Of a DNA stretch of 64,000 bases, positions 2,402 to 24,079 are shown one piece after another. The stretch is from Peptococcaceae bacterium CEB3 (GTDB taxonomy: Bacteria > Bacillota > Desulfitobacteriia > Desulfitobacteriales > Desulfitobacteriaceae), in NCBI GenBank assembly GCA_001029295.1, contig LDXJ01000064.1, positions 124,001 through 188,000 of the forward strand, written 5' to 3'. Both the position numbers and the translations under genes were made by a program. Every line of letters begins with the position of its first letter. The first letter of the stretch is position 1. The notes beneath the pieces are model-generated. The model ran no database searches, had not been told where the DNA came from, and saw nothing but the letters and a program-made list of their open reading frames with translations.

Positions 2402-2551
2402 TAATGTCCATAATGTTTGGGATGAGAGAGGGGTACAACTGGCTCAAAAAAAGGGGGTTAGAAATCACAGAAATTGAAACATGACACGCGCATCGCCCCG
2501 TGAATTATTCGGGATGATCTATCTAATAACATGAATGGAAGGATGTTGCGC

Positions 2552-3298: not shown

Positions 3299-3344
3299 CC
3301 CGACATGCATACGTTACACGAGAGTGCCAATGGAGACGCGAAAT

Positions 3345-4310
3345 ATGGAAATGTTAATTAAACGGTTTAGGCAAAAAGATCGGTTAGCCCTAAGCAAATT
3401 GATAACAATGGTCGAGAATAATAGTCCTTTCATGCTGGAAATTATGAAGGCTATTGAACCTATGGCAGGTAACGCTTACGTGCTAGGAGTTACAGGTCCC
3501 CCGGGGGCGGGCAAAAGTACACTTGTTGACAAGCTGATCCGTACGTTTCGTCATGAAGGTCAGAAGGTCGGTGTTCTGTGTGTGGACCCCAGCAGCATTT
3601 TCAGTGGGGGAGCTTTCCTTGGCGATAGGGTGCGTATGGAGTGGGCCTATAGAGACGACGGTGTGTACTTGCGCAGTTTAGCCACGCGTGGGGCGCTGGG
3701 AGGTTTAGCGCCCAGGACCAGTGAAATCATAAAAATTCTAGATGCTTTTGGGGTCGATATCATCATTGTCGAAACAGTCGGTGTGGGTCAAATGGAATCG
3801 GACATCATTAGATATTCAGACACAAAAATCGTTGTTTCGGTTCCGGGATTGGGAGACGAAATGCAAGCATTAAAAGCCGGAATACTGGAGATTGCAGATA
3901 TTTTTGTCGTGAATAAAGCGGATCTCCAGGGTGCGCAAGATGTAGCCGACGACCTGCAAATGATGTTGTATTTGAGAAAAGACAGTGACTGGACGCCAGA
4001 AATCGTGTTGACGGAGGCACAGAGTGAGCGGGGTATCCTGGATTTATATCAGGCGATTCAAAGACACAGGGACTATTTGTCCCAATCCGGACGGGGAGAA
4101 TTACAGACAAAGCGACGACGGGAACAAACTTGCCATTACGCAATCCAAGAAGTGCTCAAAAACTATATGGAAAAAAGCTTCGGAGAGATAGAGGAGGTAA
4201 GAAACATTTTTGAGGTTGTTCGGGAAGGAAGCCTTAATCCCTATAAAGCAGCGGACGAAGTCCTAAAAATAATATTCAATTCAAAAAAGACACTAATGGA
4301 AGGTGATTAA
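3345..4310 (+). CDS. meaB: MeaB/ArgK-type G-protein chaperone of a B12 mutase
   Basis: A 321-residue GTPase that loads, protects and repairs adenosylcobalamin in acyl-CoA mutases. Visible motifs are the P-loop GPPGAGKST, VDPSS, a switch segment VETVGVGQ and the guanine-specificity NKAD. GGAG at 3332-3335 fits ATG 3345; a GTG at 3324 and an ATG at 3330 are alternatives without good sites. It ends 3 bp before the mutase large-subunit start, indicating translational coupling. Such adjacency is typical for MeaB and its client mutase. Confidence 0.92.
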   Translation: MEMLIKRFRQKDRLALSKLITMVENNSPFMLEIMKAIEPMAGNAYVLGVTGPPGAGKSTLVDKLIRTFRHEGQKVGVLCVDPSSIFSGGAFLGDRVRMEWAYRDDGVYLRSLATRGALGGLAPRTSEIIKILDAFGVDIIIVETVGVGQMESDIIRYSDTKIVVSVPGLGDEMQALKAGILEIADIFVVNKADLQGAQDVADDLQMMLYLRKDSDWTPEIVLTEAQSERGILDLYQAIQRHRDYLSQSGRGELQTKRRREQTCHYAIQEVLKNYMEKSFGEIEEVRNIFEVVREGSLNPYKAADEVLKIIFNSKKTLMEGD

Positions 4311-4313: not shown

Positions 4314-6095
4314 ATGTCTAATTCGAATGATAAAGAAAAGAAAAAAGAGAAGAAAACAACGGAAGAATTAATAAAAGAGAATACGAAAAATTTAGGGAAA
4401 AGCCAGGTCTATGATCCAGCCTATCTGAAAAGAGTAAAGGGAGGTCAAGATCGTTGGAAAGAACACGGTGTTAAACCGGATAATCTAAAGCATTGGGAGA
4501 CCGTGCCTTTAACGGTTCTGGGTTCAGAGATTCCGCGAGAAATGGTCTACAGCCCATTAAGTATCGAAAATAACGATTATGAGGAACAATTAGGTAATCC
4601 TGGCGAAGCACCGTTTACCCGGGGAATTCATAGTAATATGTACCGTGGCAGAACCTTTACCCAGCGGCAACTTGTCGGCTTTGGCGGCCCAGAAGATACG
4701 AATTCAAGAATAAAGTATTTGCTGAATCATGGAGCCACAGGTATAAACCTCTTATTCGATATGCCTACGATCCAGATGTATGATTGTGACGACCCCATGG
4801 CCACGGGTTCAGTGGGTTCCTGCGGAGTGAGTGTCAACCACGTCAAGGACTGGGAACTGCTTTATGACGGTATTGATATAGCCAAAGAAACTTCTTCCAT
4901 AGTAACACACTATCCCTCAAATACGGCCTGTCTGTTTCCCATGTACTTGGTTATGGCTGAGAAAAGAGGGATCTCGTGGGATCAATTAAAGGGTAGTGTA
5001 CAAAACGATATGACGTTGGAAGAACTTGTTCGCAATGCATCCGAATATATTCCGCCCAAGGATTGCTTCCGGATTGAGTGTGACAATATAGAGTTCATCC
5101 GGAAAAATGTACCGAAATGGAATTTTATTACGATTAACGGCTACAATTTCCGGGAATTTGGCACCTCAAGCGTTACGGAAATGGCAGTGGCTGCCGCTCA
5201 TGGTATGGCAATTTTGGACGAAATGATTCGCCGTGGCTACGAAGTGGATTGGGTCGCTGAAAGGCTGGCTTTTTTCTGGTCGGGCGGTATGGACTTCTTT
5301 GAGGAGATCTGCAGACTTCGGGCCATGAGAAGACTGTGGTACAGAATCGTAAAATTCAAGTACAAGGCAAAGAGTGATCGGTCAACCTGGATGAGATGTC
5401 ATCTGCAGACCTCGGGCATCAGTCTGGTCAGGGAAGAACCGTATAATAACATCGTTCGATCAGCGTATGAGGCCCTGGCCGCTGTCCTGGGCGGGGTACA
5501 ATCTTTGCATGTCGATTCTTATGACGAGGCTATTTCGGTTCCGTCCGAGGAAGCATCCCTGATTTCTTTGCGCACACAGCAAATTATTGAACATGAAACG
5601 GGAATTACTTCCGTTGTGGATCCATTAGGAGGGGCCTATTATGTGGAAGCCCTGACCAATGAGATGGAAGAGAGAATTTTAGCCGAAATTACGGAGATAG
5701 AAAAACACGGTGGTTATGTTGAAGCAATCGCCAACGGCTATTTATCTCAGAAAATATTCAATTACATGTATAAAGAACAAATGAGAATTGAAAAAGGCGA
5801 GATAAATATTGTGGGTCATAATTACCAGAAGAGTGCTGAAGGGAAAGACTTCGAATCTTTCCGCTATCCGGAAGAATGTGAAGAAGTACAACTAAAAAGA
5901 CTGCATGAACAGAAACAGAATAGAAACAATGCCAAAGTTGAGACCGCCCTTAACGAATTAAGGACAGCCTGCAAAGACGGCGGGAACATCATGGAATATA
6001 CAGTTAATTGCGCCAGATCGGGCTGTACGGTCGGTGAGCAATGGAAAGTATTCAAAGAAGTTTTTGGCCTGTGGAAAGGACCTAGCATATTCTAA
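4314..6095 (+). CDS. B12-dependent acyl-CoA mutase, large (substrate-binding) subunit, divergent
   Basis: A 593-residue TIM-barrel subunit of the methylmalonyl-CoA mutase superfamily with no B12-binding domain of its own, as in 2-hydroxyisobutyryl- and isobutyryl-CoA mutases. An unusual lysine/glutamate-rich N-terminus (about 35 residues) precedes the fold. Using Propionibacterium MCM numbering by motif alignment: Gln197 (in QND) and Arg207 (in LVRN) are kept, Tyr89 is Leu (RQLVGF), the position of HCM Asp117 is Leu (GINLLFD), and the conserved His244 is Asn (NGYNFREF). This matches neither MCM, HCM nor ICM signatures. It is likely to interconvert branched and linear (hydroxy)acyl-CoA; the substrate is unknown. 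The ATG at 4314 follows GGAAGGTGAT. Confidence 0.85.
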   Translation: MSNSNDKEKKKEKKTTEELIKENTKNLGKSQVYDPAYLKRVKGGQDRWKEHGVKPDNLKHWETVPLTVLGSEIPREMVYSPLSIENNDYEEQLGNPGEAPFTRGIHSNMYRGRTFTQRQLVGFGGPEDTNSRIKYLLNHGATGINLLFDMPTIQMYDCDDPMATGSVGSCGVSVNHVKDWELLYDGIDIAKETSSIVTHYPSNTACLFPMYLVMAEKRGISWDQLKGSVQNDMTLEELVRNASEYIPPKDCFRIECDNIEFIRKNVPKWNFITINGYNFREFGTSSVTEMAVAAAHGMAILDEMIRRGYEVDWVAERLAFFWSGGMDFFEEICRLRAMRRLWYRIVKFKYKAKSDRSTWMRCHLQTSGISLVREEPYNNIVRSAYEALAAVLGGVQSLHVDSYDEAISVPSEEASLISLRTQQIIEHETGITSVVDPLGGAYYVEALTNEMEERILAEITEIEKHGGYVEAIANGYLSQKIFNYMYKEQMRIEKGEINIVGHNYQKSAEGKDFESFRYPEECEEVQLKRLHEQKQNRNNAKVETALNELRTACKDGGNIMEYTVNCARSGCTVGEQWKVFKEVFGLWKGPSIF

Positions 6096-6114
6096 TCGAA
6101 AGGGGAGGACGACG

Positions 6115-6531
6115 TTGAACGAGAAAACCAAAGTGCTCATGTGTTGTCTGGGACCAGAGACGCATAACCGTGGAATCATAATAGTGAGTACTATTTTGAA
6201 AGAAGAAGGAATGGAAGTCGTATACATGGGTAACACCACTGCGGAAAATGCGCTCAAAGCAGCGACAGAGGAAGATGTGCAAGTAATCGGGGTCAGCTCA
6301 CTGTCGGGAGCCCATCTGCGCACGGGGAAACGCCTCGTAGAATTAGCGAAACAAAAAGAGCTTGATAAAAGCATAGCCTTTGTCATGGGCGGCGTTATAC
6401 CCCCGAATGATATCAAGATCCTTAAGGACATGGGATTTTATAAGGTTTGCGTTAGTGGCACAAAAAGGGAGGAATTAGTGGCAGCGATGAAGGATGCGGC
6501 TCATTCGGTCTGCGCCTATACTGTTAAATAG
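6115..6531 (+). CDS. B12-dependent acyl-CoA mutase, small (cobalamin-binding) subunit
   Basis: A 138-residue Rossmann-like B12 domain. It shows the lower-ligand histidine in ETHNRG (the canonical D of DxHxxG is E here), then SSL and GGVIPP, the three cobalamin-tail contacts. The TTG at 6115 is preferred: AGGGGAGGA lies just upstream and the length equals the ~136 residues of HcmB-type subunits. A longer ORF reading back to 6034 would overlap the large-subunit gene. It pairs with the large subunit 19 bp upstream. It is the last gene of operon 1. Confidence 0.9.
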   Translation: MNEKTKVLMCCLGPETHNRGIIIVSTILKEEGMEVVYMGNTTAENALKAATEEDVQVIGVSSLSGAHLRTGKRLVELAKQKELDKSIAFVMGGVIPPNDIKILKDMGFYKVCVSGTKREELVAAMKDAAHSVCAYTVK

Positions 6532-6641: not shown

Positions 6642-8816
6642 TCAGTTTGGTTCGCAGTGAAGTTTCTTAAACTTGCGGTAAAGCGTGCTTCTCGCCATTT
6701 TTAATTCAGCCGCTGCTTTTGTCATGTTGTAATTGCATTCACTGAGAGTCTTGAGCAGAAAATCCCGTTCGGCGCTTTGTACTACGCCCAAGCGGGGCTC
6801 GGGTTCGTATAGATTTTGTTTTAGGTCCGTCAAATGCAAATACACACTGTCTCTGAAATGGACAGCGGTTTTTTTGTTCGGTGGTTCGGAGAGCTCCGGT
6901 GGCAGGCAGTCTGAGGTAATATAGCCGCTGTCACAACAATTCAGCTGAATGGTACGTTCTATAACGTTGTGTAATTCCCGGATGTTGCCCGGCCAGTGAT
7001 AAGACTCTAGTATTCGCACAGCCTCGTCGCTTATCTGCAAGTCCGGTCTGCCCAATTCTCGCCGGGCTTTTTCCAGAAAGGAAGAGACCAAAAGGCTAAT
7101 GTCTTCGAGTCGTTCCCGCAGAGGTGGTAAACTTATATTAATAACATTTAATCGGTAGAATAAATCTTCGCGGAAATTACCGTTTCTAACTTGGTCAAAA
7201 AGGTTTTTATTGGTAGCTGCAATAATCTTCACATCGATTGGGATCGTATGGCGACCCCCAATTCGGCTGACCGTCCGTTCTTCTAGAACCCGCAATAAAT
7301 TTACTTGTTGATCAAGTGGCATCTCACCGATTTCATCCAGGAAAATGGTTCCGCCACAGGCCAATTCAAATTTGCCGGGGTTTCCGCCTTTACTGGCTCC
7401 CGTGAAAGCCCCCTCGGCATAGCCAAATAGTTCGCTGACGATCAGGTCTTTGGGCAAAGCACCGCAATTAATGGTGACAAACGGCCCTGCGGATCTCTGA
7501 CTGCCGACGTGAATGGCTTGGGCAAACAGTTCCTTGCCGGTTCCGCTTTCGCCTTGGATGAGAACTGTAGAGTCATTTAATGTTGCGCGTTTGGCCATTT
7601 CAATACTTTTGAGGAATGACTGATCGTGGCCCAAGATACTGGCGAAACTATAGCGTGCAGCACTGTTTCCGGCTTCGCTCCGGGTGTTGTTGCCTGCCGC
7701 CCTGTTGTGAGACTTAACCTTGGCTCTATTCCAAAACGTGTCAACCGGGTCGGTTTCGCGTGGCAGACCCTCAGGTTCCAAATAGGGATTCCTATGCTTG
7801 TCAGGAGGGGAGGCGGCACGAACAGTGACCAATACGCCGATGGGCTTGCCATTTTCCACCATTTGCGTTCCGGCGATGTGGAGTTCTCGCGACAATTTAG
7901 TCTCCATAATGGTTGCTTCATATTGACGATTCGGTTCTCCACGCGACAAGATTTCCGATATCGCGTTTTGTAGACTGGGAAAGCCAGCCAAATTCCGGCC
8001 GATAATCAATCCGGGTTCGGCACCGAGTTGTCTGGCCGCCCGCTGATTAATATGGGATACTCTCCCATGAATGTCGATCGCGAGACTACCGTCGGCGTTA
8101 GGGGTAGTGGACACGGCCAAATATTGATCAGTTAATTTCTGCTGCCGGATCATTTCCTTTTGGTGCAAAGACATTTCAATGGCTCTGGCCTGAGCGACTA
8201 CGAGTCCAAGCGTATGGGACTGATGATAGTTCCAAGATCCTGTAATGTCGAGGATCCCCAGAATATCCCCAGTAACCGGATTGTGGATTGGCGTAGCGGA
8301 GCAGGTCCACGTATGCCAACCCTCACAAAAGTGTTCGGCAGAAAAAATCTGGACCGGACTATTAAGTTTAAGGGCCGTACCAATGGCATTAGTACCCGCT
8401 CTTTCTTCACTCCAGTCAGCACCCGCGCTTAAATGGTTTAAAGCAGCGCGATACTGAATGTCTGAGTCACCTATGACTTCGACGATCTGGCCAAGGTTAT
8501 TGCAGAGAAAAGCTACATGTTTGGTGTCGGTAATTATCCGGGCCAAGTCTTTGAGGATGGGCCCAGCCGACTCAATCATTTCACTCTCTGTTTTGATGTT
8601 GTACACGTCTTCCTCACCAAGCACGATTTGAGCCTTAATAGAACCAGGATTAACCCCATACGAACTGCTGCGTTTCCACGATTCACTGACCAAAGGTCGC
8701 AAGTCTTTTTCCGGTACTTTACCGTTGGCAAGAAAAGCGTCCCACATTCTGGCTAATTCCCTGCTTACCTTTGCGGGTTCATTCGTTGCCGAAACAGCGA
8801 GTGGAGAAATATTCAA
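6642..8816 (-). CDS. AcoR-type sigma-54-dependent transcriptional activator
   Basis: About 724 residues. The N-terminal part holds a GAF-like sensor with the AcoR-family hallmarks ERAGTNAIG and EHFCEGWHTWTCSA, followed by a PAS-like region. The AAA+ domain has Walker A GESGTGKE and the sigma-54 contact loop GAFTGA, and a Fis-type helix-turn-helix (MTKAAAELKMARSTLYRKF) ends the protein. The TTG at 8816 follows GGGGGG; the ORF reads further upstream without a good start. It lies within the island it probably controls. AcoR-like activators are known for acetoin, and to my knowledge acetone carboxylase, operons. The likely effector is the growth substrate or a CoA derivative (inference). Confidence 0.9.
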   Translation of the reverse strand: MNISPLAVSATNEPAKVSRELARMWDAFLANGKVPEKDLRPLVSESWKRSSSYGVNPGSIKAQIVLGEEDVYNIKTESEMIESAGPILKDLARIITDTKHVAFLCNNLGQIVEVIGDSDIQYRAALNHLSAGADWSEERAGTNAIGTALKLNSPVQIFSAEHFCEGWHTWTCSATPIHNPVTGDILGILDITGSWNYHQSHTLGLVVAQARAIEMSLHQKEMIRQQKLTDQYLAVSTTPNADGSLAIDIHGRVSHINQRAARQLGAEPGLIIGRNLAGFPSLQNAISEILSRGEPNRQYEATIMETKLSRELHIAGTQMVENGKPIGVLVTVRAASPPDKHRNPYLEPEGLPRETDPVDTFWNRAKVKSHNRAAGNNTRSEAGNSAARYSFASILGHDQSFLKSIEMAKRATLNDSTVLIQGESGTGKELFAQAIHVGSQRSAGPFVTINCGALPKDLIVSELFGYAEGAFTGASKGGNPGKFELACGGTIFLDEIGEMPLDQQVNLLRVLEERTVSRIGGRHTIPIDVKIIAATNKNLFDQVRNGNFREDLFYRLNVINISLPPLRERLEDISLLVSSFLEKARRELGRPDLQISDEAVRILESYHWPGNIRELHNVIERTIQLNCCDSGYITSDCLPPELSEPPNKKTAVHFRDSVYLHLTDLKQNLYEPEPRLGVVQSAERDFLLKTLSECNYNMTKAAAELKMARSTLYRKFKKLHCEPN

Positions 8817-8841
8817 GGCGAAGACCCCCCAAATAATTCTA

Positions 8842-8899
8842 GCAACACAGCACGTAGTAGCACACAATAAATTATACTGTAGTGGCAATATTCCCACAA
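8842..8899 (-). promoter_or_regulatory. Housekeeping promoter of the regulator with an activator-like site
   Basis: Read on the minus strand: -35 TTGTGG (8894-8899), 17-bp spacer, -10 TATAAT (8871-8876). Just downstream of the predicted start point, 8842-8861 has arms GCTAC and GTGTTGC resembling half-sites of the upstream activator sites at 2254-2310. This could give negative autoregulation by roadblock (inference). Confidence 0.5.
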
Positions 8900-8993: not shown

Positions 8994-10001
8994 TCATTGC
9001 CGGAGTTCTGGGGCAACTTGAGGGTTACGTAGTCTATAATTGTGGACTCCGGCTATTGGAAGAGCTTCCACACACAGATCTGTTTCCAAAATGTCCAGGT
9101 GGGCCTTTACCTCTTTCATAGCCAGCCAGAGTTGTGGGGCTGTGAGCTTACGTCCAAGATCTGATAAAAGGTCTTCGCTTATTTCGAAGGTGCTTTTGGG
9201 TCGGACACCAACCATAGCCAAGATGTTGGCTCGCCTGACGTTTATTCCGTTCAATATGCTTCTAATGCGCTCCGCGTAATTATACACTAAGGGACCGTGC
9301 CCAGGTAAACATAGTCGGATAGGAAGAGAAAGATTAGCACTGAGAGAATCTACATATTCCCGTAGTCCTCCTTGGTGAGTTCGTTGTTTAGTCAAATCTA
9401 AGTCTGGGTTGGGACTAATCTTGGACAGAATATGATCTCCGGTGAAAATTAACCCGCCTTCGTCATAGAGACATAAACCAGCCGGGGAATGTCCAGCGCA
9501 ACATTGAACATGCCAATTCTGAAAACCGGCAAAGATCATAGAGCCAGGGGCCAAGGTCCCAATCTGGCTAGCAGGGGTTATTTCACCTCCTAACCCCCGG
9601 AGAATTTCTAAATACTGTAGAATGTGCTTGCTGAGTTTCCCCGGGACTCCCGATGTCGCCAAATGTTCCCGGACCATGTCACTTGCCAGATCCTGCTGAA
9701 AATCCAGCATATTTTGTTTCTCGGGGGCAGACATGAATACGTCCGCCCCATTGATCTGGCGAAGGTGCTCCAAAAGACCATAATGGTCGACATGACCGTG
9801 GGTAATGATGATCCGGCGGATATCCCTTAAACGCCTTCCAACACTTCTCAAGCCCGTTTCAATTCCTTGTTCAACACCGGGATAACATAGACCCGTGTCA
9901 ATCAGGGTGGGCATGTCACCTTCAAGGAAATAAATATTGACCTTCCCTACATCAGGTAGGGGCACACTGATTTTGAATATTTTATCCGTAACTGCTTCCA
10001 T
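8994..10001 (-). CDS. Metallo-beta-lactamase-fold hydrolase
   Basis: A 335-residue protein with the MBL metal motif THGHVDHYG (HxHxDH) near residue 70, further His/Asp ligands in CAGHSPAG and TGDH, and a C-terminal helical extension of about 80 residues. Family members hydrolyse thioesters, lactones or phosphoesters; a CoA-thioester or glyoxalase-II-like role would suit this cluster, but specificity cannot be read from sequence. The ATG at 10001 follows GAGGAGG. It lies 177 bp upstream of the AcoR-type gene on the same strand and diverges from the ThDP enzyme, with a candidate sigma-54 promoter at 10134-10149. Confidence 0.78.
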   Translation of the reverse strand: MEAVTDKIFKISVPLPDVGKVNIYFLEGDMPTLIDTGLCYPGVEQGIETGLRSVGRRLRDIRRIIITHGHVDHYGLLEHLRQINGADVFMSAPEKQNMLDFQQDLASDMVREHLATSGVPGKLSKHILQYLEILRGLGGEITPASQIGTLAPGSMIFAGFQNWHVQCCAGHSPAGLCLYDEGGLIFTGDHILSKISPNPDLDLTKQRTHQGGLREYVDSLSANLSLPIRLCLPGHGPLVYNYAERIRSILNGINVRRANILAMVGVRPKSTFEISEDLLSDLGRKLTAPQLWLAMKEVKAHLDILETDLCVEALPIAGVHNYRLRNPQVAPELRQ

Positions 10002-10326: not shown

Positions 10327-10342
10327 TGGCATGAAAGTTGCA
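10327..10342 (+). promoter_or_regulatory. Sigma-54 (-24/-12) promoter, operon 2
   Basis: TGGCATGAAAGTTGCA, same spacing and near-identical to the boxes at 2386 and 14999. The first gene of operon 2 starts 140 bp downstream behind AAAGGAG. Confidence 0.88.
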
Positions 10343-10481: not shown

Positions 10482-12515
10482 GTGACAAAACTCGGTATTG
10501 AGTTCGACAAAGAGGCTCAGAAGAAGCTTGATGTACCGTTGGGGGAACGGGAGATGTACCCGTATCCCGGGATGTACGTGGCGGAATCATTGAAAGAACA
10601 AGATGTTACCATTGCCTTCGGTGTACCGGGAGGGCATATTTGGCACTTTATCGACGGGATCAGCCGGATTGGAATTAAGACCGTCACCTTTGCCCATGAA
10701 CAAAACGCAGTTTACGCGGCGGAAGCCTATGCTCAAGTCTCCCGCAAACACGGCGTTTGTTATGGTACAGTGGGCCCCGGGGTAGGCAACTCGATTAGCC
10801 CCATTCACCAAGCCTGGCTCAGCCGGACCCCGCTCTTCTTTATCTGTGGTGGACATGAAGTAGAACATGATAAATTATGGAATACCATTCAGGAAAGTTA
10901 TGCTGCTGAGATGACTGCCAGTATTACCAAGTGGGCCCAGAGGGTGGTTTATCCTAATACAATCAAACAGTTTTTCGCCAGAGGGTTAAAAACTGCCATG
11001 ACATTCCCTTACGGACCGGTTCTAATGGAATTGGGCATTAGCTGCCTGTTTACACCTAAAGATGCCAACGACCGGATCTGGTACGGGTCCTGGGGCGACC
11101 ATGCGACGTGGATACCTGACTGGCGGCGTGATGAGACGACGAAGCCCATCACATCAGCAGGTAATCCGGATGATATCGCCCGTGCGGTCAAGGTCCTTTA
11201 TGAAGCGGAAAAACCGTTCGCCATGATAGGTGACGGCGCCCATTGGGCGGATGCCGGGGCCGAACTGCAGGAACTTTTTGAGCTTGCACGGGTGCCCTTT
11301 ACGACCCGGCGCCTCGGTCGCGGTGTGATCCCGGAGACCCACCCGATGTGTCATCGCGGTGTACCGCCATTCCGCAAAGAAATTGATTTAATGTTCCCGG
11401 TGGGGGTGGAGGTCGGCTTCTTTGACGGCTATGCGGGAAAATGGCCGGCCGCTGTGCAAGTCGCCGAGTCGGCGGAAATGATTTACACCTATATCGATAC
11501 TATGGCAACGGTGGTTGGGAACCCGAAGCTTGTCGCGAAACAAATGATCGATTATATCAAGGCGAACGGGCTGACCCCGCCGGCCGGGCGCGAAGAATGG
11601 GTCAAGAAATGTCAGGCTTCCCAGGTTGACGGAACTGAAAAGCGCCGGGCGAAAGCCATGAAGTTTAAGGACCATCCGCGCTACAAGGAACACCCCTTTA
11701 TGCATTTTGGCTATTTAGCCCAAGCGACCCAGGATTATTTGGCGGAACATTATGATAATAAAGTTCGCATTCTGATCGACGGGTACACGATGTCCGATTT
11801 CGTCATGACTTACCTCGTATGCACCAGACCGGCCCAAATATTGACGGCTTCAGACTACGCCGGCGTCGGTCACGGGGTAGGGCAGGCCATCGGCGTGGCC
11901 TTCGCGCAGATGGAACAGGGCGACAAGACTCCGGTTCTTGCTCTGATGGGCGATTCCGGCATGGGAAATGCCATGATGGATATCGAAGTGGCTGCCCGAT
12001 ATAAATTACCGATCGTTTACCAGGTTACCAACAATGATGGTTGGATGCCTGGCATGAAGTATGTGTGGTATGGGGAGAAGTGGGAAAATCTGGGTGAACA
12101 AGATGCGTTGGGTAGTGATTGGAACGGAATTGAACAAATGGGTCAGGAAAGGTTACCTATCCGTTATGATAAAATCGCCCAGGAACTGGGCTGCTATGGC
12201 GAAACCGTCACCAGCCATGACGATTACCCGGCAGCTCTGGACCGTTGCTTCAAGGCGGCTGAAAAGGGGCAGCCGGCTGTTCTGAACTGCATGATGGATA
12301 AACACCTTGTCAACAAAGCAGTGTACAGTCCGGTTTACGCCTTGATGTACCAGCATATTCCGTGGGTAGATTTGCCGGAAAGAGGAAGAGCGGTGCGCCG
12401 TGCTATTTGGGGCAAGGAGCGGGCTTTCAAAGGCTTGGTCGATTACCCGAAGATGACCGTTCCCGACAACTGGGAGCCTTTGACAGATGACGAAATTCCG
12501 ATTAGGAAGGATTAG
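10482..12515 (+). CDS. Thiamine-diphosphate enzyme, large; putative ketone-activating acyloin/hydroxyacyl-CoA lyase type
   Basis: A 677-residue member of the acetolactate synthase/oxalyl-CoA decarboxylase superfamily, about 100 residues longer than usual. The N-terminal Pyr domain has the catalytic glutamate in HEQNAVYAAEAYA (near residue 76). The C-terminal PP domain has a ThDP/Mg site GDSGMGNA ending in NN (GDS rather than the usual GDG). It opens a sigma-54 operon of the B12-mutase regulon. By analogy with acetone-induced ThDP enzymes of Desulfococcus biacutus and Desulfosarcina cetonica it may add a C1 (formyl) unit to a ketone to give a 2-hydroxyacyl-CoA (inference). Ordinary acetolactate synthase is encoded separately at 50276. 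The GTG at 10482 follows AAAGGAG. Confidence 0.8.
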   Translation: MTKLGIEFDKEAQKKLDVPLGEREMYPYPGMYVAESLKEQDVTIAFGVPGGHIWHFIDGISRIGIKTVTFAHEQNAVYAAEAYAQVSRKHGVCYGTVGPGVGNSISPIHQAWLSRTPLFFICGGHEVEHDKLWNTIQESYAAEMTASITKWAQRVVYPNTIKQFFARGLKTAMTFPYGPVLMELGISCLFTPKDANDRIWYGSWGDHATWIPDWRRDETTKPITSAGNPDDIARAVKVLYEAEKPFAMIGDGAHWADAGAELQELFELARVPFTTRRLGRGVIPETHPMCHRGVPPFRKEIDLMFPVGVEVGFFDGYAGKWPAAVQVAESAEMIYTYIDTMATVVGNPKLVAKQMIDYIKANGLTPPAGREEWVKKCQASQVDGTEKRRAKAMKFKDHPRYKEHPFMHFGYLAQATQDYLAEHYDNKVRILIDGYTMSDFVMTYLVCTRPAQILTASDYAGVGHGVGQAIGVAFAQMEQGDKTPVLALMGDSGMGNAMMDIEVAARYKLPIVYQVTNNDGWMPGMKYVWYGEKWENLGEQDALGSDWNGIEQMGQERLPIRYDKIAQELGCYGETVTSHDDYPAALDRCFKAAEKGQPAVLNCMMDKHLVNKAVYSPVYALMYQHIPWVDLPERGRAVRRAIWGKERAFKGLVDYPKMTVPDNWEPLTDDEIPIRKD

Positions 12516-12617
12516 CCGATACGATGGCATGGAGCACTGCTCATGCAGGCTCCTTGCCGCTTTCAAAATGACGGGAGGGTGTTCTGACACACTGAAATGT
12601 ACTGGGGAGTGGGCGAA

Positions 12618-13862
12618 ATGAGAGCTTCGGTGGCAGGAAAGACCGAAAACTGTACAAAATGCAATTTCTGCAAATTTATGCTCAATTGCAGTCAACAGCG
12701 ATGCATCGGATGTGGTCAGTGTGTTTCAGCTTGCCCTAACGAAGCCAGGGTAATGCTTCCAATCCGCCGCAACGAAAGGATTAGGCTGGTGGTCGATGGA
12801 AAAAGAGTGGAGGTGCCGAAGCAAATTACGATCCTGAAGGCTCTGGAGCTTGTCGGGTACACTGTAAGCAATCACCCAAAGCAGGACGGTGACATTCTGG
12901 CCCCTTGTCAAATGGGTGGATGCGGAGCCTGCGCCGTCCTTGTTAATGGGAAGCTTAAGCCCAGTTGCACGACGGAAGCGGAAGAGGGTATGGACATCCG
13001 CACAGAGCCGGCTGAGATCATTTTAAAGGAACCCATTCGGTTGGCCAACCATTTTGACGCTTATCAAGGTGGGATAATCGGAGCGGCTCCCATCAGAACC
13101 AGCGGAGTGACTGAATACGCTTTCTTCGCTCAGGGATGCAATCTGCGTTGTCCGGCTTGTCACAATTGGGATATAACCTTTTCCAGTATCGGTAAATACT
13201 GTACGCCGCGGCAGGCTGCTGAAATCATGGAACGAGGCAGAGTTCGCAGCGGAGTATCCAAAATTTCGCTGACCGGGGGAGAGATAACTTTGAACCGCCC
13301 TTGGCTCATGCAGTTTTTGCGGGAATTCAAGACACTTTGTAGTCTCCCGGAGGTGACTATTCAGTTGGACAGCAATGCGAGTTTTTTGTCTCCGGATTAT
13401 ATTGATCAACTATTTGAAGCTGGGATAACAGATATTTCTCCGGATGTTAAAGGATTGTATTTGGACACCTATATGAGATTTACCGGAGGGCATGACCGGG
13501 AATTAGCTGAACTGAACGTGAAGACATCGTGGCAGGCGGTGGAATATTTGCTTCAAGAGTATATGCAAAAAATGTTCATCGTTTTAGCGATACCTTATCA
13601 CGCCGCCTTTATAGGGATGGAGGAAATCCAGGAAATCGCGCGAAGAATTTTTGCCCTTAACCCTGATGTGTGTATTAGTTTGATTGATTATCAACCCGCT
13701 TTCAGACGTCGTGACCTACCGGCGACAAGTACGAAAGGAATGGAAGAGGTTCATCAGATCTTGTTGGATTCGGGCTTGCGTAGAGTGTTATGGCAGACAG
13801 GGGACCGACTGGGATTGGCACTGGATCCGGATGACTTGTTTTTGGAACTGAATACTTTTTAG
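12618..13862 (+). CDS. Radical SAM protein with N-terminal 4Fe-4S and 2Fe-2S ferredoxin domains
   Basis: A 414-residue three-part fusion. Residues ~12-40 hold a cysteine-rich ferredoxin-like segment (CTKCNFC, then CIGCGQCVSACP). Residues ~55-120 hold a plant-type 2Fe-2S-like domain (CQMGGCGAC and a later Cys). From ~150 comes a radical-SAM domain with CNLRCPAC (CxxxCxxC) and the SAM-contact TGGE, resembling glycyl-radical-enzyme activases. No glycyl radical enzyme is nearby, so the substrate is unknown. Its place between the ThDP enzyme and the biotin carrier suggests a role in C1 or redox chemistry of the pathway. ATG 12618 is chosen over 12597 because GGGGAG precedes it. Confidence 0.8.
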   Translation: MRASVAGKTENCTKCNFCKFMLNCSQQRCIGCGQCVSACPNEARVMLPIRRNERIRLVVDGKRVEVPKQITILKALELVGYTVSNHPKQDGDILAPCQMGGCGACAVLVNGKLKPSCTTEAEEGMDIRTEPAEIILKEPIRLANHFDAYQGGIIGAAPIRTSGVTEYAFFAQGCNLRCPACHNWDITFSSIGKYCTPRQAAEIMERGRVRSGVSKISLTGGEITLNRPWLMQFLREFKTLCSLPEVTIQLDSNASFLSPDYIDQLFEAGITDISPDVKGLYLDTYMRFTGGHDRELAELNVKTSWQAVEYLLQEYMQKMFIVLAIPYHAAFIGMEEIQEIARRIFALNPDVCISLIDYQPAFRRRDLPATSTKGMEEVHQILLDSGLRRVLWQTGDRLGLALDPDDLFLELNTF

Positions 13863-13939: not shown

Positions 13940-14398
13940 ATGCAGTGTTTTAGAGTGGCTGTAAATGGTGTTAACTACAATATCGAGGTAGAGGAAATTT
14001 CTAAGGGTATGACTGCTAAAGAGAGGAACGGGCAAGTATCGAAACCATCAGTGGTACCGCAACTGGCCGTGGTTCCGACAAATCGTAAAGAAGCTCCAAA
14101 AGAAGCTCCTAAAGTAGCCTCTAAAGAAACCCCTAAAGAAGCCCCTAAAGAAGCCGCCAAAGAAGCTTCGAAGAAGAACGGAGGCAATGCCCAGATCGTG
14201 TCGCCTATGCCGGGCATGGTCGGAGAAATTATGAAAGTTGCCGGAGACTCTGTGGCTGCCGGCGAAACGATTATGTTGCTGGAAGCGATGAAATTGGAAA
14301 ATGATATTGTGGCACCTAAAGACGGAGTTATCGGGATGCTCTATGTTTCTACGGGTCAGGGCGTTAATGTCGGAGATCTTCTGGCCGAAATAGATTAA
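13940..14398 (+). CDS. Biotin carboxyl carrier protein
   Basis: 152 residues. An N-terminal ~55-residue part is followed by a repetitive Lys/Ala/Pro/Glu linker (KEAPKEAPK type, residues ~50-78) and a biotinyl/lipoyl domain with the biotinylation motif EAMKLEN. The flexible linker is typical of carriers that swing between biotin carboxylase and carboxyltransferase sites. Those partners are encoded 6-8 kb downstream in operon 3 (20393-23422). The ATG at 13940 follows GAGGTGG. The next gene is a putative membrane anchor, 18 bp downstream. Confidence 0.92.
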   Translation: MQCFRVAVNGVNYNIEVEEISKGMTAKERNGQVSKPSVVPQLAVVPTNRKEAPKEAPKVASKETPKEAPKEAAKEASKKNGGNAQIVSPMPGMVGEIMKVAGDSVAAGETIMLLEAMKLENDIVAPKDGVIGMLYVSTGQGVNVGDLLAEID

Positions 14399-14416
14399 TA
14401 AATGGTGGTGAGAAAG

Positions 14417-14836
14417 ATGATTGATTTTGCGCTGGTCGGCGTTGTTCTACTGGGCGGGATTGTGATCGGAATAGGTTCCTTGTTCCTAGCCATGGGGTTT
14501 CTCACCGCGTTTCTAAAACGAATGGGTGTTGGCGTTGAATTTACTCCAGTATTGCCACCATCCAGACGAAATGCGGAGATACCATCATCGAACATGGGAC
14601 GTTTGCATCTGGAGAGTCAGGTGATATCTGATTCGATACCTGATTCAAAGTTGGAGGGAATGGATCAAAGTGAAGGGGCAGAGATTGATGAAAGGGTGCA
14701 AGACGCTACTTTACCCGGGGTGGGTCAACAAGAGCTGGATGCCAAAATTGTCGCAGCGATTTCCGCGACACTGTGTGCCGGCGGATTCATCCGGAAGAAT
14801 AGTCAGAAGATTAAAGAGGTGCGGTTCGTGAACTAG
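14417..14836 (+). CDS. OadG/MmdD-like small membrane subunit of a biotin enzyme
   Basis: About 139 residues. A single N-terminal transmembrane helix (roughly residues 4-30) is followed by an acidic, low-complexity linker and a C-terminal segment (AAISATLCAGG..) like the conserved tail of gamma/delta subunits of Na-pumping biotin decarboxylases. Those subunits tether the complex to the membrane. No beta (Na-pump) subunit is present in the window, so here it may only anchor the carboxylase. GGTGGTGAG precedes ATG 14417; ATG 14402 is an alternative. Confidence 0.6.
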   Translation: MIDFALVGVVLLGGIVIGIGSLFLAMGFLTAFLKRMGVGVEFTPVLPPSRRNAEIPSSNMGRLHLESQVISDSIPDSKLEGMDQSEGAEIDERVQDATLPGVGQQELDAKIVAAISATLCAGGFIRKNSQKIKEVRFVN

Positions 14837-14998: not shown

Positions 14999-15014
14999 TG
15001 GCATGTTATTTGCA
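14999..15014 (+). promoter_or_regulatory. Sigma-54 (-24/-12) promoter, operon 3
   Basis: TGGCATGTTATTTGCA, matching the boxes of operons 1 and 2. The first start codon is about 200 bp downstream. Confidence 0.88.
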
Positions 15015-15217
15015 AAATACACTGTGGAAATGTTGGGATTATTTGAAAAACCGGATTGGCAAGGGGGGGATTCAGCGATTATAAGATTTGCAGACTTATA
15101 GGGCTATAAAAGTAGGCATGTCGGAGGGGGGATAGTAGTCTGGGATCGTGAATTTTGTAAAAGTCAAGATGGTATTGCCCATCCAGGGCTAAAATGTTTT
15201 TGAAAGGACGTGGCGTC

Positions 15218-16360
15218 ATGAAACTTTTATTACCGAAAAAGGTGACTTTTACTGAACTCTTTGCCAGGGACGGCTTGCAGAACGAAACCGCTTTTTTCCC
15301 CACCGACGCTAAAATCTACTTCATCAACAAGGCCTCCGAATTGGGCTTTCAGTGCGTCGAGGTAACGAACTTTGCTCACCCCAAGAACATGCCTCAGTTC
15401 AGAGATGCGGAGGAGGTCTTAAAACGCATTACCAGACGCCCGGGTGTCGTCTACAAGTGCTACGGTATGTCTGACAAAGCATTTGAACGGGCGGTTAAGG
15501 CCAAGGAAGAAGGGTATGGTCCGGACGTGCTGGCATTCACCTTTTCAATGACCGAGTCCCACAGCAAGCGAAACGCCGGGCGTACCCATGAGGAATACTG
15601 GAGACAGATTCCTCACTGGATCGAAATGGCGCACAGTGTGGGGATCAAAGTGGACTTTGCGATGGCCGGTGTGTTTGGCTGTCCCATAGAAGGACCGGTG
15701 CCATTGAACCGGCCCTTGGAGATTCTCGAGCGGGCGCTGGAAATGGGTGTTGACAGTGCCACACCGTGCGATACAACCGGCGAGGCGTCGCCCAACCGGG
15801 TCTTCGAATTTTACACCAGGCTGAGAGAAAAATTTCCCAACGCGGATGTTCACGTGGCTCATTTTCACGACTCGCGGGGCATGGCGATGGCTAATTATCT
15901 TACGGCTGTTTACGCCGGAGTCACGCACATTGAAACTTCGCTCGGCCAGTTAGGGGGTCAGCCGGCCTTTATCATGGACGGAGTACCGGGAATCGGAACC
16001 GGAACCAACTATTGCCCCAGTGATATTGTCGGTAACGGTTCTACCGAAGATGCTTTGGTCATGCTGGACGAAATGGGCATTGATGTTGGGGTTGATATCG
16101 ACGCAGTCTTGGAACTGGGACGGGTTTTGGAATGGAGCTTGGGTAAGGAATTACGTCCGTACACGACGAAAACAGGCCGGATTCCGAAGGGACCTACGGC
16201 ATGGCAAGCCACTCCTCCTTATCGTCGTGGTTGGTGGGCTTATCCGACCGTTTCTCAGGCTCATACGAGTAAGGTGGTCGAAGATAGACGGTTCGGTGAA
16301 GAGAAGCAGATTGCCGAAGTTAAACGGAGAGAGTTTGCCAATTTGCAGGAAGCAAAATGA
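15218..16360 (+). CDS. HMG-CoA-lyase-like (DRE-TIM) protein lacking the usual catalytic cysteine
   Basis: 380 residues, longer than the ~300 of ordinary HMG-CoA lyases. Kept features: RDGLQNE near the N-terminus, the metal-binding HFHDSRG, and VGNGSTED. The family's catalytic motif GLGGCP reads QLGGQP, and an insertion of about 17 residues containing another Cys (TNYCPSD) follows. So it is a divergent C-C lyase or synthase of the DRE-TIM superfamily rather than a confident HMG-CoA lyase. As first gene of a regulon operon with thiolase, ligase and carboxylase, it may cleave or form a branched acyl-CoA. AAAGGA fits ATG 15218. Confidence 0.75.
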   Translation: MKLLLPKKVTFTELFARDGLQNETAFFPTDAKIYFINKASELGFQCVEVTNFAHPKNMPQFRDAEEVLKRITRRPGVVYKCYGMSDKAFERAVKAKEEGYGPDVLAFTFSMTESHSKRNAGRTHEEYWRQIPHWIEMAHSVGIKVDFAMAGVFGCPIEGPVPLNRPLEILERALEMGVDSATPCDTTGEASPNRVFEFYTRLREKFPNADVHVAHFHDSRGMAMANYLTAVYAGVTHIETSLGQLGGQPAFIMDGVPGIGTGTNYCPSDIVGNGSTEDALVMLDEMGIDVGVDIDAVLELGRVLEWSLGKELRPYTTKTGRIPKGPTAWQATPPYRRGWWAYPTVSQAHTSKVVEDRRFGEEKQIAEVKRREFANLQEAK

Positions 16361-16387
16361 GAAATAAGGAAGCAGGGGTCTTTTAAG

Positions 16388-17566
16388 ATGGGTGAAGTTG
16401 TGATTGTTAGCGCTGTCCGCACGGCGATTGGTTCCTTTAACGGTACTCTGGGAGTCGTTCCAGCTGTCCAACTGGGTGAGGTTGTAATTAGAGAAGCTCT
16501 TAACAGAGCTGGCCTGACCGGAGCTGATGTGGACGAGGTGTTTATGGGAAATACCCTGCAAGCCGGTCTGGGACAAAATCCGGCCAGACAGGCCGCTGTC
16601 AGAGCAGGAATCCCAGTGGAAATACCGTCACTAAGCATTAACAAAGTTTGTGGGTCTGGTCTTAGGGCGGTTAGTCTGGCGGCGCAGACCATCTTGGCCG
16701 GAGATTCAGACGTTGTGGTAGCAGGCGGCATGGAGAACATGACCTTAGCTCCTTATGTACTTCCGAACAACCGTTGGGGGCAGCGCATGGGCAATGGAGA
16801 AGTTGTCGATAGCATGATCAAAGATGGCTTGTCATGTGCGTTTAACTCCTACCATATGGGTATTACAGCTGAGAATGTGGCGGAACGTTTTCAGATCAGC
16901 CGGGAAGAGCAGGACGCTTTGGCCGTCGAAAGCCAGCAACGGGCCGAAAAGGCGATTGCGGCCGGCAAATTCAAAGCTGAGATAGTAACAGTCCAGATAC
17001 CGCAACGCAAGGGCCCCAATGTGGAGTTTAGTACGGATGAGTTTCCCAAAGCAGGCGCCAACATGGCTAACATGGCAAAATTGAAACCCGCATTCAAAAA
17101 AGATGGCACTGTCACTGCAGGCAACGCCTCTGGGATCAATGACGCGGCAGCCGCCGTAGTGTTGATGTCCGGCCAGAGAGCGAAAGATTTAGGGATTCAA
17201 CCGTTGGCGAAGATTAAAGGGTACGCTTCCGCCGGTGTGGACCCGGCCATCATGGGCACAGGACCGATTCCGGCTACCCAAAAGGTACTGCGAAGACTGG
17301 GGTTGAGTGTATCGGATTTAGGACTGGTCGAGGCGAACGAAGCGTTTGCAGTCCAAGCTCTGGCGGTCACGCGCGAGTTGGGACTGAACCCCGAAAAAAC
17401 CAACGTTAACGGGGGGGCTATTGCTCTGGGTCATCCTATCGGTTGCAGTGGAACCCGGATCTTGGTGACCCTGCTCTACGAAATGAAGAGAAGAGGTGTC
17501 GAATTGGGTTTAGCCACCCTATGCATCGGCGGCGGAATGGGAACAGCTATGGTTGTAGAAGCCTAG
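16388..17566 (+). CDS. Acetyl-CoA C-acetyltransferase (thiolase)
   Basis: 392 residues. Full thiolase signatures: nucleophile Cys in NKVCGSG near residue 88, GHPIGCSG with the active-site His, and the C-terminal CIGGGMG. It reversibly splits acetoacetyl-CoA (or another 3-ketoacyl-CoA) with CoA to acetyl-CoA units. In this regulon it would finish the path from the dehydrogenase product. It lies 27 bp after the lyase-like gene. Confidence 0.94.
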
Positions 17567-17605
17567 TGGTTTGGGGGTGTGTTTGTTGGAAAGAGGGCTT
17601 TTACC

Positions 17606-18778
17606 ATGGGATTGGAACGTATTGAACAGTTGCAGGAGTCACTTCAGGCAAACGGACTGGTGGCGGCTTTAATCATGCATCCTCTGGATGTGTACTATTA
17701 CGCGGGTACGGCTCAGCCATGCAACTTAATCATTCCGGCACGCGGGGAACCTTGTTTGCTAATCCGGCGTGCGGAAGAATTTGCGCGGCGGGAGACTTGG
17801 GTGAAGAACAATAGAGTGGGTGCAAGCCTGAGGAACGTCAAGCATGTTTTTGAGGAATTAGAGATTTCGGACGGATTGGTGGGAGTTACTGAGGACAATA
17901 TTCCGGCAGCCATCTATAAAAAGATCCAGAGCACCTTGGCACCGGCAGAAATCACGGATGTGTCAGCAATTGTTTTGGAACAGAGAATGGTTAAAGACCC
18001 CTATGAGATTATGGCTATCCGGGTTAGTGCCAAGGTATTCGAATCGGTGCATGAAACAATCATGAAGTACGGAGTTGCGGGCGTAAAAGAAATTGAGTTG
18101 GCCGGACAGGTTTACGCGGCAATGCGGAGTGCGCAAGCGGAAGGAATACCCAGAAACCGGCGCTGGGATGCTTCTTTACACCCGGAAGGAATTATCTGCG
18201 CGGGAGAAAACACCTGGCATATCTCAGGATATGCCATGACTGTCACCGGTGTTGGGCTGAGTAATTCACTGGCTTGGGGTTCTTCCGCAAGCCAGATCAA
18301 GAGGGGGGATGTCTTAGTTGCTGATATCGGGATCAATAAGCATGGTTACCATGCGGACATCGCCCGGACCTATATAGTCGGAGAAACAAATTCGCGCCAG
18401 CAAGAGATTTTTGACCTTGTGAAGGCGATCCAAGAACGGGTATTGGCGAAGATTCGTCCCGGCGTGTTGGCCCGAACTCTATATGAGGAAGCTGAAAGCG
18501 CGGCCATCGAGAGTTCATGTTACGAATATTTTCAAGGGTATGATGGCATGAAGGGCAGATACGTCGGGCACGGAGTGGGCCTCGAATTGGATGAGCCACC
18601 GACCATCGATCCCTATACCAGAGTTACGCTGGAGGAAAACATGGTTTTGGCTATCGAACCCAAATTGCTTGTTCCCGGCGTGGGCGGGTTTGATCTTAAG
18701 GATACTGTCTTGATTACGCGTGAGGGCTACGAAATCATCAGTCCGGTATCCAGAGAACTATTTGAAATTGGCGATTAA
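17606..18778 (+). CDS. M24/creatinase-fold protein, probably not a standard aminopeptidase
   Basis: 390 residues, two-domain pita-bread fold. Four metal-ligand positions known from aminopeptidase P are present (Asp in VADIG, Asp in HADIAR, His in GHGVG, Glu in AIEPK). The last glutamate (family ED motif) is replaced: GFDLKD. Loss of a ligand is typical of M24 relatives with other chemistry, such as creatinase or DddP-type lyases. Its location inside a CoA-ester operon argues against a general Xaa-Pro peptidase. The ATG at 17606 is preceded by AAAGAGGG. Confidence 0.7.
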   Translation: MGLERIEQLQESLQANGLVAALIMHPLDVYYYAGTAQPCNLIIPARGEPCLLIRRAEEFARRETWVKNNRVGASLRNVKHVFEELEISDGLVGVTEDNIPAAIYKKIQSTLAPAEITDVSAIVLEQRMVKDPYEIMAIRVSAKVFESVHETIMKYGVAGVKEIELAGQVYAAMRSAQAEGIPRNRRWDASLHPEGIICAGENTWHISGYAMTVTGVGLSNSLAWGSSASQIKRGDVLVADIGINKHGYHADIARTYIVGETNSRQQEIFDLVKAIQERVLAKIRPGVLARTLYEEAESAAIESSCYEYFQGYDGMKGRYVGHGVGLELDEPPTIDPYTRVTLEENMVLAIEPKLLVPGVGGFDLKDTVLITREGYEIISPVSRELFEIGD

Positions 18779-18794
18779 TGAGGGGTGGAGATCA

Positions 18795-20360
18795 GTGAAC
18801 TTAGCTGACGGTTTACGTATAAATGCCTGGCGCTTTCCGGGTAAGACGGCGACGGTCTTCGGTGATCAACGGGTAACGTATGCCACAATGAATGCCAGGG
18901 CCAACCAATTCGCTCATGCTATGTTAAAGAGGGGCTTTCGGCGCGGAGATAAGGTTTCAATAGTCCTTACCAACTGTATTGAATTCTTAGAAGTCTATCA
19001 TGGTTTGGCCAGAATCGGCGTTGTCTCCGTGCCCATAAATTTTCGGCTGGTGGCAAGGGAAAAGGCCTATATCATTAACAATTCCGATTCCGTAGCAATC
19101 ATTACTGAAAGCGAGTTTGTGCCTGAACTCGAAGGGGTTGAGTTTCCACAATTGCTGCCTCACGGGTATATCTTGGTCGGCCGGCAGGAAGATACACCGG
19201 ATAATTTTGCGAATTATGAATCATTATTGCTAGACATGCCGGTCAATGAACCGGCGGTAGATCTGAATGAGGCGGATGTCTTCTATCTGGGCTACACCTC
19301 AGGCACAACAGGCTTTCCCAAAGGCGCTTTAATTCAAACCGAGGGAACTTTAGATGTGGTAAAAAACGCCATGCTGCGAACGGCTGGCCGCGCTGACGTG
19401 GACATGAGTCAGAGGGTATTTTTGGCCATTATGCCCATTTGCCATTCGAACTCCATTTGGGCGACATTAATCACCTTTTGGGTGGGTGGCGTGAATGTGA
19501 TTTTCCCGTCCGGCAAATTTGATCCGGAAAAAGTGCTGCAGTTGATAGAAAAAGAACGCGTAACCACTACCTCCATGGTTCCTACCATGATTACCAGGAT
19601 TGTCGAATTACCGGAAGCGGTAAAGGCCAAATATAACCTTGACTCATTGACTTCATTAGGGTCTTCTTCAGCTCCCCTGCTGACAAAAACGAAAGAAGCC
19701 GCCTTGCTCTTTTTCAAAAATGCCCGTTTCAGTGAAGGATATGGGTCAACGGAAACAGGGGCACTGACGACCTTGCGTCACCGGGATCAATTGCGTAAGG
19801 TTCGCAGTATCGGGAAAGCGAATCCTGGGATTGAGATTAAGTTGCTTGATGAGGATGGTCATGAAGTCAAACAAGGTGAGGTCGGTGTCCTGTGGGCCAA
19901 AGCTAAGTCTGCCTTTCTGGGCTACTATAAGGAACCGGAAAAGTCAGCTCAGGCCCGGCGCGGCGAGTGGGTTACCGCCGGGGACATGGCCTTCATGGAT
20001 GAAGAAGGTTACTATTTCCTGGTTGATCGCAAAAATGACATGATCATAAGCGGGGGTGAAAATGTTTATCCGGCCGAGATTGAGGAGGTGATCAGTAAGC
20101 ACCCGGCGGTAGCGGAAGTCGCCGTGTTCGGAATCCCACATAAGCAATGGGGTGAGGAAGTGAAGGCCATTGTAATTTTGCGGGAGAACCAAGCTGTCTC
20201 GCAGGGAGAGTTGCAGGAATACTGTAAGGAACAACTGGCAGGGTACAAGCGCCCACGCAGTATTGATTTCGTCGCCGATTTTCCCAGGACCGCCACGGGA
20301 AAAGTACTCAAACGTGTTCTCAAAGAGCCATTCTGGCGTAGTCAGGAACGCATGATTTAG
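18795..20360 (+). CDS. AMP-forming acyl-CoA ligase
   Basis: 521 residues, ANL superfamily. The adenylate-forming P-loop YTSGTTGFPKGA lies near residue 170, GSTETG in the middle, and the C-terminal catalytic lysine region PRTATGKVLKR near the end. It activates a carboxylic acid to its CoA thioester with ATP. The acid is unknown; in this operon acetoacetate, a branched or hydroxy acid, or a carboxylation product are possible. The GTG at 18795 follows GGGGTGGAG, 16 bp after the preceding stop; the ORF extends upstream into the previous gene but without a ribosome site. Confidence 0.9.
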   Translation: MNLADGLRINAWRFPGKTATVFGDQRVTYATMNARANQFAHAMLKRGFRRGDKVSIVLTNCIEFLEVYHGLARIGVVSVPINFRLVAREKAYIINNSDSVAIITESEFVPELEGVEFPQLLPHGYILVGRQEDTPDNFANYESLLLDMPVNEPAVDLNEADVFYLGYTSGTTGFPKGALIQTEGTLDVVKNAMLRTAGRADVDMSQRVFLAIMPICHSNSIWATLITFWVGGVNVIFPSGKFDPEKVLQLIEKERVTTTSMVPTMITRIVELPEAVKAKYNLDSLTSLGSSSAPLLTKTKEAALLFFKNARFSEGYGSTETGALTTLRHRDQLRKVRSIGKANPGIEIKLLDEDGHEVKQGEVGVLWAKAKSAFLGYYKEPEKSAQARRGEWVTAGDMAFMDEEGYYFLVDRKNDMIISGGENVYPAEIEEVISKHPAVAEVAVFGIPHKQWGEEVKAIVILRENQAVSQGELQEYCKEQLAGYKRPRSIDFVADFPRTATGKVLKRVLKEPFWRSQERMI

Positions 20361-20392
20361 AGCTTATTTACAGAATTAAGGAAGTGGCTGAC

Positions 20393-23422: not shown

Positions 23423-23517
23423 CAGATGGATAGTCCTGACGGTTGGTTTGGAATATTACTGCTGACTTTACTTCAAATTTGGGGGATGGGTGTCGATTAA
23501 GTACGGGGGGAGAAATT

Positions 23518-24066: not shown

Positions 24067-24079
24067 GTTGGTGAGAACC

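Follow-up and report, generated by a model that had tools for sequence, protein, structure and literature searches.

Acetone activation by strict anaerobes, without spending two ATP on carboxylation, is a question that has been standing since the 1990s. Acetone-induced, TDP-requiring enzymes have been described for the ketone-degrading sulfate reducers Desulfotruncus (Desulfotomaculum) arcticus (04018), Desulfoscipio geothermicus (101183), Desulfococcus biacutus (DebiaDRAFT_04566) and Desulfosarcina cetonica (105227), and the growth of D. arcticus DSM 17038 and D. geothermicus DSM 3669 on acetone was examined by proteomics (PMC8084838). 2-hydroxyisobutyryl-CoA mutase activity was demonstrated for D. 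biacutus and D. cetonica (PMC7888143). No member of the ThDP enzyme family has a demonstrated reaction, and assays that offered D. cetonica extracts acetone together with many C1 donors failed (PMC7888143). Among the non-subscription papers searched, we found none from after 2021 that names the C1 donor.

We analysed a 64,000 nucleotide stretch of DNA, here called the window, from Peptococcaceae bacterium CEB3. It encodes a ThDP-dependent enzyme of 677 amino acids (10482..12515, plus strand), which is probably the ketone-activating carboligase of an anaerobic acetone pathway. The sequence-only reading of this DNA had suggested that the enzyme may join a ketone to a C1 donor through a new C-C bond. 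Orthology and tree point to that role, which is right in outline but not new because it had already been proposed for the family (PMC7888143, PMC8084838). While the acetone hypothesis was thus already published, four points described below are new and checkable: the radical-SAM partner, a small protein that accompanies it, the putative promoter type common to three operons and a map of active-site residues.

The ThDP enzyme and its family

The open reading frame at 10482-12515 (+) begins with a GTG start codon, with a GGAG ribosome-binding-like site 9 bases upstream, and its start position is common to the homologues in the family alignment. The protein matches Pfam TPP_enzyme_N, TPP_enzyme_M and TPP_enzyme_C (8e-31, 2e-14 and 2e-19). 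Its catalytic Glu was read as intact, and E73, which aligns with E65 of the lyase AcHACL, is indeed kept in 19/19 family members. The protein had also been called about 100 residues longer than acetolactate synthase, in agreement with 677 versus 564 amino acids (~110 more), and the canonical acetolactate synthase placed at 50276 passes TIGR00118 (50276-51970; 776.7 bits, cut-off 538). The extra length consists of a 25-residue N-terminal piece, an insert downstream of the conserved NNxGW (residues ~522-556) and ~70 C-terminal residues with invariant family-specific positions. In the family alignment 17 positions from 518 to 557 are near-invariant, as are 21 in the C-terminal part. Structure prediction, proposed for these extra segments, gave a fair model overall (mean pLDDT 75, pTM 0.79), with the insert at 522-544 below pLDDT 50. 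The Mg/ThDP motif GDSGMGN is present as described, but its GDS is not distinctive; we dropped it as a diagnostic motif since E. coli oxalyl-CoA decarboxylase has it (GDSAFGF) and the family varies (GDGGMGN in L013). A glycyl-radical motif in the enzyme was considered and rejected: none of the RVxGY type was seen, and the invariant R634-G635 in the C-terminal extension is the one weak candidate.

A profile built from five relatives and run against 84,980 species genomes found 20 loci of the family, 50-87% identical, in Desulfotomaculum-type Bacillota and Desulfobacterota-type MAGs. The 21st match, 21% identical, is another ThDP enzyme outside the family. Two of the loci belong to D. arcticus DSM 17038 and D. 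geothermicus DSM 3669, to whose proteins the window enzyme is 67% identical over the full length. Between these two organisms we computed pairwise identities of 88.87% for the ThDP enzyme, 88.57% for the HMG-CoA-lyase-like protein (HMGL) and 83.81% for the mutase. These values agree with the 88.76, 89.02 and 84.35% published for the acetone-induced proteins (PMC8084838), so the relatives found here are those proteins.

In the maximum-likelihood tree the family, including the acetone-induced enzymes, forms one clade with 100/100 support, outside oxalyl-CoA decarboxylase, HACL, AcHACL, benzaldehyde lyase, GCL and acetolactate synthase. The window protein, for which such a tree had been proposed, groups here with ThDP enzymes that known ketone degraders induce on acetone, on a branch of its own together with SKS3.bin89; the nearest outside relatives are a 38% identical paralogue (L011) and an actinobacterial plasmid protein. 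Orthology to an unrelated decarboxylase or synthase was not found: the clade is separate and the scores are far below the cut-offs, with 158.1 bits for acetolactate synthase (TIGR00118, cut-off 538), 154.7 for oxalyl-CoA decarboxylase (TIGR03254, 739.4) and 146.4 for the AcHACL type of 2-hydroxyacyl-CoA lyase (NF058623, 600). Judged by these comparisons, the window protein is orthologous to the TDP-requiring enzyme that ketone-degrading sulfate reducers induce on acetone. A housekeeping enzyme, acetolactate-synthase-like or oxalyl-CoA-decarboxylase-like and merely located in the cluster, would have the superfamily and the cofactor domains in common with it; scores of 158 of 538 and 155 of 739 bits, the separate clade and the true acetolactate synthase already in the genome make this very improbable.

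By predicted structure, oxalyl-CoA decarboxylase and 2-hydroxyacyl-CoA lyase have the nearest folds (Z 34-36), and in the profile search benzaldehyde lyase/formolase tie with oxalyl-CoA decarboxylase for the best score. Despite this fold, and the GDS of the E. coli decarboxylase, the enzyme differs from the oxalyl-CoA decarboxylase/HACL clade in its separate position in the tree, in H52, where that clade has P, and in the ADP-site region, which is GKG there and GDG/GDx in the window family. Benzaldehyde lyase/formolase share the G-H and NTxQ active-site motifs, but they are a separate clade without the C-terminal extension and without the insert.

The MAG Peptococcaceae BRH_c4b has four paralogues of the ThDP enzyme (L016, L017, L028 and L031), which suggests that substrates differ within the family; two of them are without an adjoining radical-SAM gene and have F in place of P before the active-site GGH. 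D. geothermicus has a half-length second copy, the C-terminal half only, ~10 kb from the full gene (L010; L015:2-742). A sister family, which also has the TRR/GRR motif, occurs on actinobacterial plasmids (Rhodococcus and Pseudonocardia; L037, L038) and as the second ThDP gene in G084 (L011). The neighbours of its genes on the Rhodococcus and Pseudonocardia plasmids gave no functional clue.

Gene cluster and putative promoters

The acetone gene set forms three plus-strand operons in the window. The first (2531-6531) encodes a FabG-type short-chain dehydrogenase, a candidate 3-hydroxybutyryl-CoA dehydrogenase (2531..3298), a MeaB-type G-protein chaperone of B12 mutases (3324..4310; TIGR00750, 337.7 bits, over the cut-off), the large subunit of a B12-dependent acyl-CoA mutase (4314..6095) and a B12-binding small mutase subunit (6034..6531, the true start being probably later than 6034). 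The genes at 3324-6531 bear out the B12-mutase chemistry that the sequence-only reading had seen nearby. On the minus strand, between the first and second operons, lie the genes for a sigma-54-dependent transcriptional activator (6642..8897) and an MBL-fold hydrolase (8994..10001).

In the second operon (10482-14836) the ThDP gene is followed by those for a radical-SAM protein with an N-terminal cysteine-rich ferredoxin-type part and a 2Fe-2S domain (12597..13862; Pfam Fer4, Fer2_4, Radical_SAM), a biotin carboxyl carrier protein (13940..14398; PF00364) and a small membrane-type protein with an N-terminal hydrophobic stretch (14402..14836). By its position and form the latter may be OadG-like; it has no Pfam or NCBIfam match, and a relative is found at the equivalent place in L012.

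The third operon (15194-28226) starts with the HMG-CoA-lyase-like protein (15194..16360; PF00682), followed by a thiolase of the acetyl-CoA acetyltransferase type (16388..17566), an M24 peptidase of the Xaa-Pro aminopeptidase type (17579..18778), an AMP-forming acyl-CoA synthetase (18720..20360), which is 65-73% identical in most acetone loci, a biotin-dependent carboxyltransferase subunit (20384..21919), a biotin carboxylase (21980..23422), an isochorismatase-family hydrolase (23443..24066), a hexapeptide-repeat protein of the gamma-carbonic-anhydrase/acetyltransferase type (24068..24628) and a single-chain pyruvate:ferredoxin oxidoreductase (PFOR, 24723..28226). Acetone induces the HMG-CoA-lyase-like homologue in D. 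arcticus and D. geothermicus, and genes of the M24 peptidase and hexapeptide-repeat types in D. arcticus (PMC8084838). The window ThDP gene thus lies with genes typical of acetone-induced systems (B12 mutase, MeaB, dehydrogenase, thiolase, HMGL-like, acyl-CoA synthetase and carboxyltransferase), and what it has in common with the acetone-induced enzymes is orthology, neighbours and pathway genes.

In the proposed pathway ThDP would hold a formyl-level C1 unit as a carbanion, which would add to the carbonyl of acetone (or butanone) and give a 2-hydroxyisobutyryl unit, a C-C step that we infer. The B12 mutase would straighten this unit to 3-hydroxybutyryl-CoA, the SDR dehydrogenase would oxidise it, and the thiolase would cleave acetoacetyl-CoA into two acetyl-CoA. 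Acetone use by the host organism is predicted from the genes. Our own evidence for the pathway is the orthology, the gene cluster, the shared type of putative promoter and the conserved active site, all read from sequence; the acetone induction of the orthologues is taken from the literature (PMC8084838). Against it stand the failed D. cetonica extract assays and the four paralogues of BRH_c4b; the simple scheme also leaves the biotin carboxylase parts and the HMG-CoA-lyase-like protein unexplained, and the window mutase has L/R, not the I/Q of the characterised 2-hydroxyisobutyryl-CoA mutase.

These residues are at HcmA positions 90/208, where the D. arcticus and D. geothermicus orthologues, 67-69% identical to the window mutase, likewise have L and R, whereas HcmA and the mutases of L012 and L013 have I and Q. 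Those of L021, L026 and L029 have L and G. The I90/Q208 signature of the HcmA type was not found in the window mutase, and in the literature searched we found no report of 2-hydroxyisobutyryl-CoA activity of an L/R-type mutase. In the L90/R208 combination (window 4314-6095; L060, L061) the R is as in methylmalonyl-CoA mutase and the L replaces Y/F/I. Contig C61 of this genome carries a second mutase copy (L052).

Each of the three operons is preceded by a putative sigma-54-type promoter on the plus strand: TGGCATGATATTTGCA (2386..2401) 145 bp upstream of the dehydrogenase-mutase operon, TGGCATGAAAGTTGCA (10327..10342) 155 bp upstream of the ThDP operon and TGGCATGTTATTTGCA (14999..15014) 195 bp upstream of the HMGL operon. 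The pattern TGGCATGN4TTGCA occurs in these three near-identical copies, one per operon, with no others in 64 kb. Shuffling gives 0.02 expected against the 3 observed, an optimistic figure because the tight pattern was picked after the sites had been seen in a looser sigma-54 pattern search (5 observed versus 2.03 expected). The positions of the three sites at three operon starts are independent support for the putative promoters. Related sigma-54-type sites are found upstream of the ThDP gene in L012, L013, L018 and L023. The sharing of this putative promoter type by the three operons is new here.

Active site and candidate C1 donors

As reference for the active site we used the actinobacterial 2-hydroxyisobutyryl-CoA lyase AcHACL (PDB 7pt1), with numbering confirmed by at least 16 matching letters; one alignment query was the window protein with 14 residues swapped for the published AcHACL stretch (HMMER). 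H52, E73, T96 and Q137 of the window enzyme, all kept in 19/19 members, are the counterparts of AcHACL H44, E65, T88 and Q128. In AcHACL, activation of ThDP falls to E65 and binding of the acyl oxygen to Q128, which together with H44 and T88 also holds the water at the tertiary alcohol group of 2-hydroxyisobutyryl-CoA (PMC8760513). The acid/base residue E493 is not kept and is G524 in the window enzyme (G in 18/19). The CoA-binding arginines of HACL/S are R260 and R400 in ApbHACL, of which R400 is replaced by M442. The first one (AcHACL R273) is R292, invariant in the family, in the L-INS-i alignment and a gap in phmmer, and its match is thus aligner-dependent; an invariant R277 is at the CoA-contact position Q255. 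The invariant acyl-contact residues, together with the replacement of E493 and of the second Arg, suggest a retained pocket on the ketone side and a rebuilt CoA side. Loss of all CoA binding was considered and not sustained, as the R273 counterpart depends on the aligner. The two enzymes have the ThDP fold, the four invariant active-site counterparts and a long C-terminal extension in common, but the identity is ~22%, E493 is G, one CoA-binding Arg is lost and the NF058623 score is far under the cut-off. AcHACL chemistry is the reverse of that predicted for the window enzyme.

The carboligase reading can be specified further by its donor. One version, proposed in PMC7176365, is a 2-hydroxyisobutyryl-CoA lyase running in reverse, in which acetone would react with formyl-CoA, supplied by the AMP-forming acyl-CoA synthetase or in another way, to give 2-hydroxyisobutyryl-CoA. 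The acyl-contacting residues as in AcHACL, the invariant R292 alignable with R273, the invariant R277 at Q255 and the nearest folds all argue for it. Against it are M442 at the second CoA-binding Arg (ApbHACL R400), G at the lyase catalytic E493, the phmmer gap at R273, and the report that formyl-CoA was inactive in extracts and not detected in acetone-grown cells (PMC7888143). With this evidence we regard formyl-CoA as a possible donor, held with some doubt. Carriage of the C1 unit (at the CO, formate or CO2 level, or as an aldehyde) on ThDP without CoA seems to us rather unlikely. The product would be 2-hydroxyisobutyrate or its aldehyde, from which the AMP-forming acyl-CoA synthetase would then make the CoA ester, and radicals or electrons would come from the radical-SAM/ferredoxin protein. 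This fits the equal profile match to benzaldehyde lyase/formolase, which use no CoA, the lost CoA-binding Arg, the conservation of the synthetase at 65-73% in most loci, a TDP-stimulated conversion of ATP to AMP+PPi in D. biacutus (PMC4103992) and an aldehyde trapped with acetone, ATP and CO (PMC5123277). However, the basis is residues that are absent and old extract data, and the synthetase may serve other steps.

The residue map leaves formyl-CoA neither proven nor excluded as the donor. For the ketone-activating carboligase as such, point mutations and donor choices can be guided by the conserved active site and by the uncertainty over the CoA site, and a working enzyme would help to produce C4 compounds from acetone and C1 feedstocks.

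Radical-SAM neighbour and small companion protein

A radical-SAM gene of one family lies directly downstream of the ThDP gene in 16/18 readable loci, the window included, with three contigs ending at the ThDP gene left out. The two exceptions (L017 and L031) are paralogues in the MAG whose other two copies have one, and the adjacency spans two phyla. In 15 aligned sequences of the radical-SAM protein 8 N-terminal, 4 2Fe-2S-domain and 3 radical-SAM cysteines are invariant. In a 398-genome phylum sample the ThDP enzyme and the radical-SAM protein are distributed identically, both being present in the same four genomes from four different families (chance ~1e-9, assuming independent genomes). The association is strong but not exclusive, because G020 and G022 of the same class have a 41-44% identical radical-SAM homologue and no ThDP enzyme.

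The catalytic core is nearest to pyruvate formate-lyase activase, with a CxxxCxxC radical-SAM core in common and an NrdG2 match under the cut-off; the window protein adds the N-terminal cysteine-rich part and the 2Fe-2S domain. Activases of this kind usually serve a glycyl-radical enzyme. Neither the glycyl-radical domain (PF01228) nor NrdD (PF13597) had a match in the 98.5%-complete host genome, nor in UBA702 and UBA696, and the control genomes were positive. We therefore think it quite improbable that the neighbour simply activates a glycyl-radical enzyme and has nothing to do with the ThDP enzyme, although its core speaks for this, as do the homologues in two genomes that lack the ThDP enzyme, one of them beside a 2-oxoacid oxidoreductase; the adjacency in 16/18 loci of two phyla adds to the case against. 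With no glycyl-radical client found in these genomes, the neighbouring ThDP enzyme would be the best candidate client, and the ferredoxin-fused radical-SAM protein may work on or with it, as activase or electron supplier. A radical-SAM partner in a host genome where no glycyl-radical enzyme was found is new here.

A further step would make the ThDP enzyme a radical-SAM-dependent carboligase, activated or reduced by its dedicated partner, which would serve no glycyl-radical enzyme, and using a C1 unit other than free formyl-CoA. We consider this unlikely; if true, ThDP catalysis of a new kind would be at work, and the failure of extract assays lacking the active partner would be explained. The radical-SAM protein and its usual small companion are concrete missing components that could be added to such an assay. 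The radical-SAM homologues L054 and L055, in two relatives without the ThDP enzyme, each lie beside a second radical-SAM gene, and one of them also adjoins 2-oxoacid:ferredoxin oxidoreductase genes.

The small companion, of 106-132 amino acids, is encoded between the ThDP and radical-SAM genes in ten loci (L019-L027, L029) and downstream of the radical-SAM gene in D. arcticus, D. geothermicus and BRH_c4b (L014-L016), and so joins the pair in 13 loci in total. In this the window differs from D. arcticus and most others: the companion is missing near the ThDP gene here and in L012, and a search of the host genome, run without a positive control genome, did not find it, which argues that it is not essential for every family member. 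Pfam gave no meaningful match to it, and its structure, modelled with confidence (pLDDT 88), has no convincing counterpart in the PDB (Foldseek best E 1.3; VIA-align best Z 2.1), which is no proof of a new fold. The linked small companion is new here. Its two placements are homologous (hhalign probability 97.5, E 5e-12), and the D. arcticus companion, matched by position, is the published 04016.
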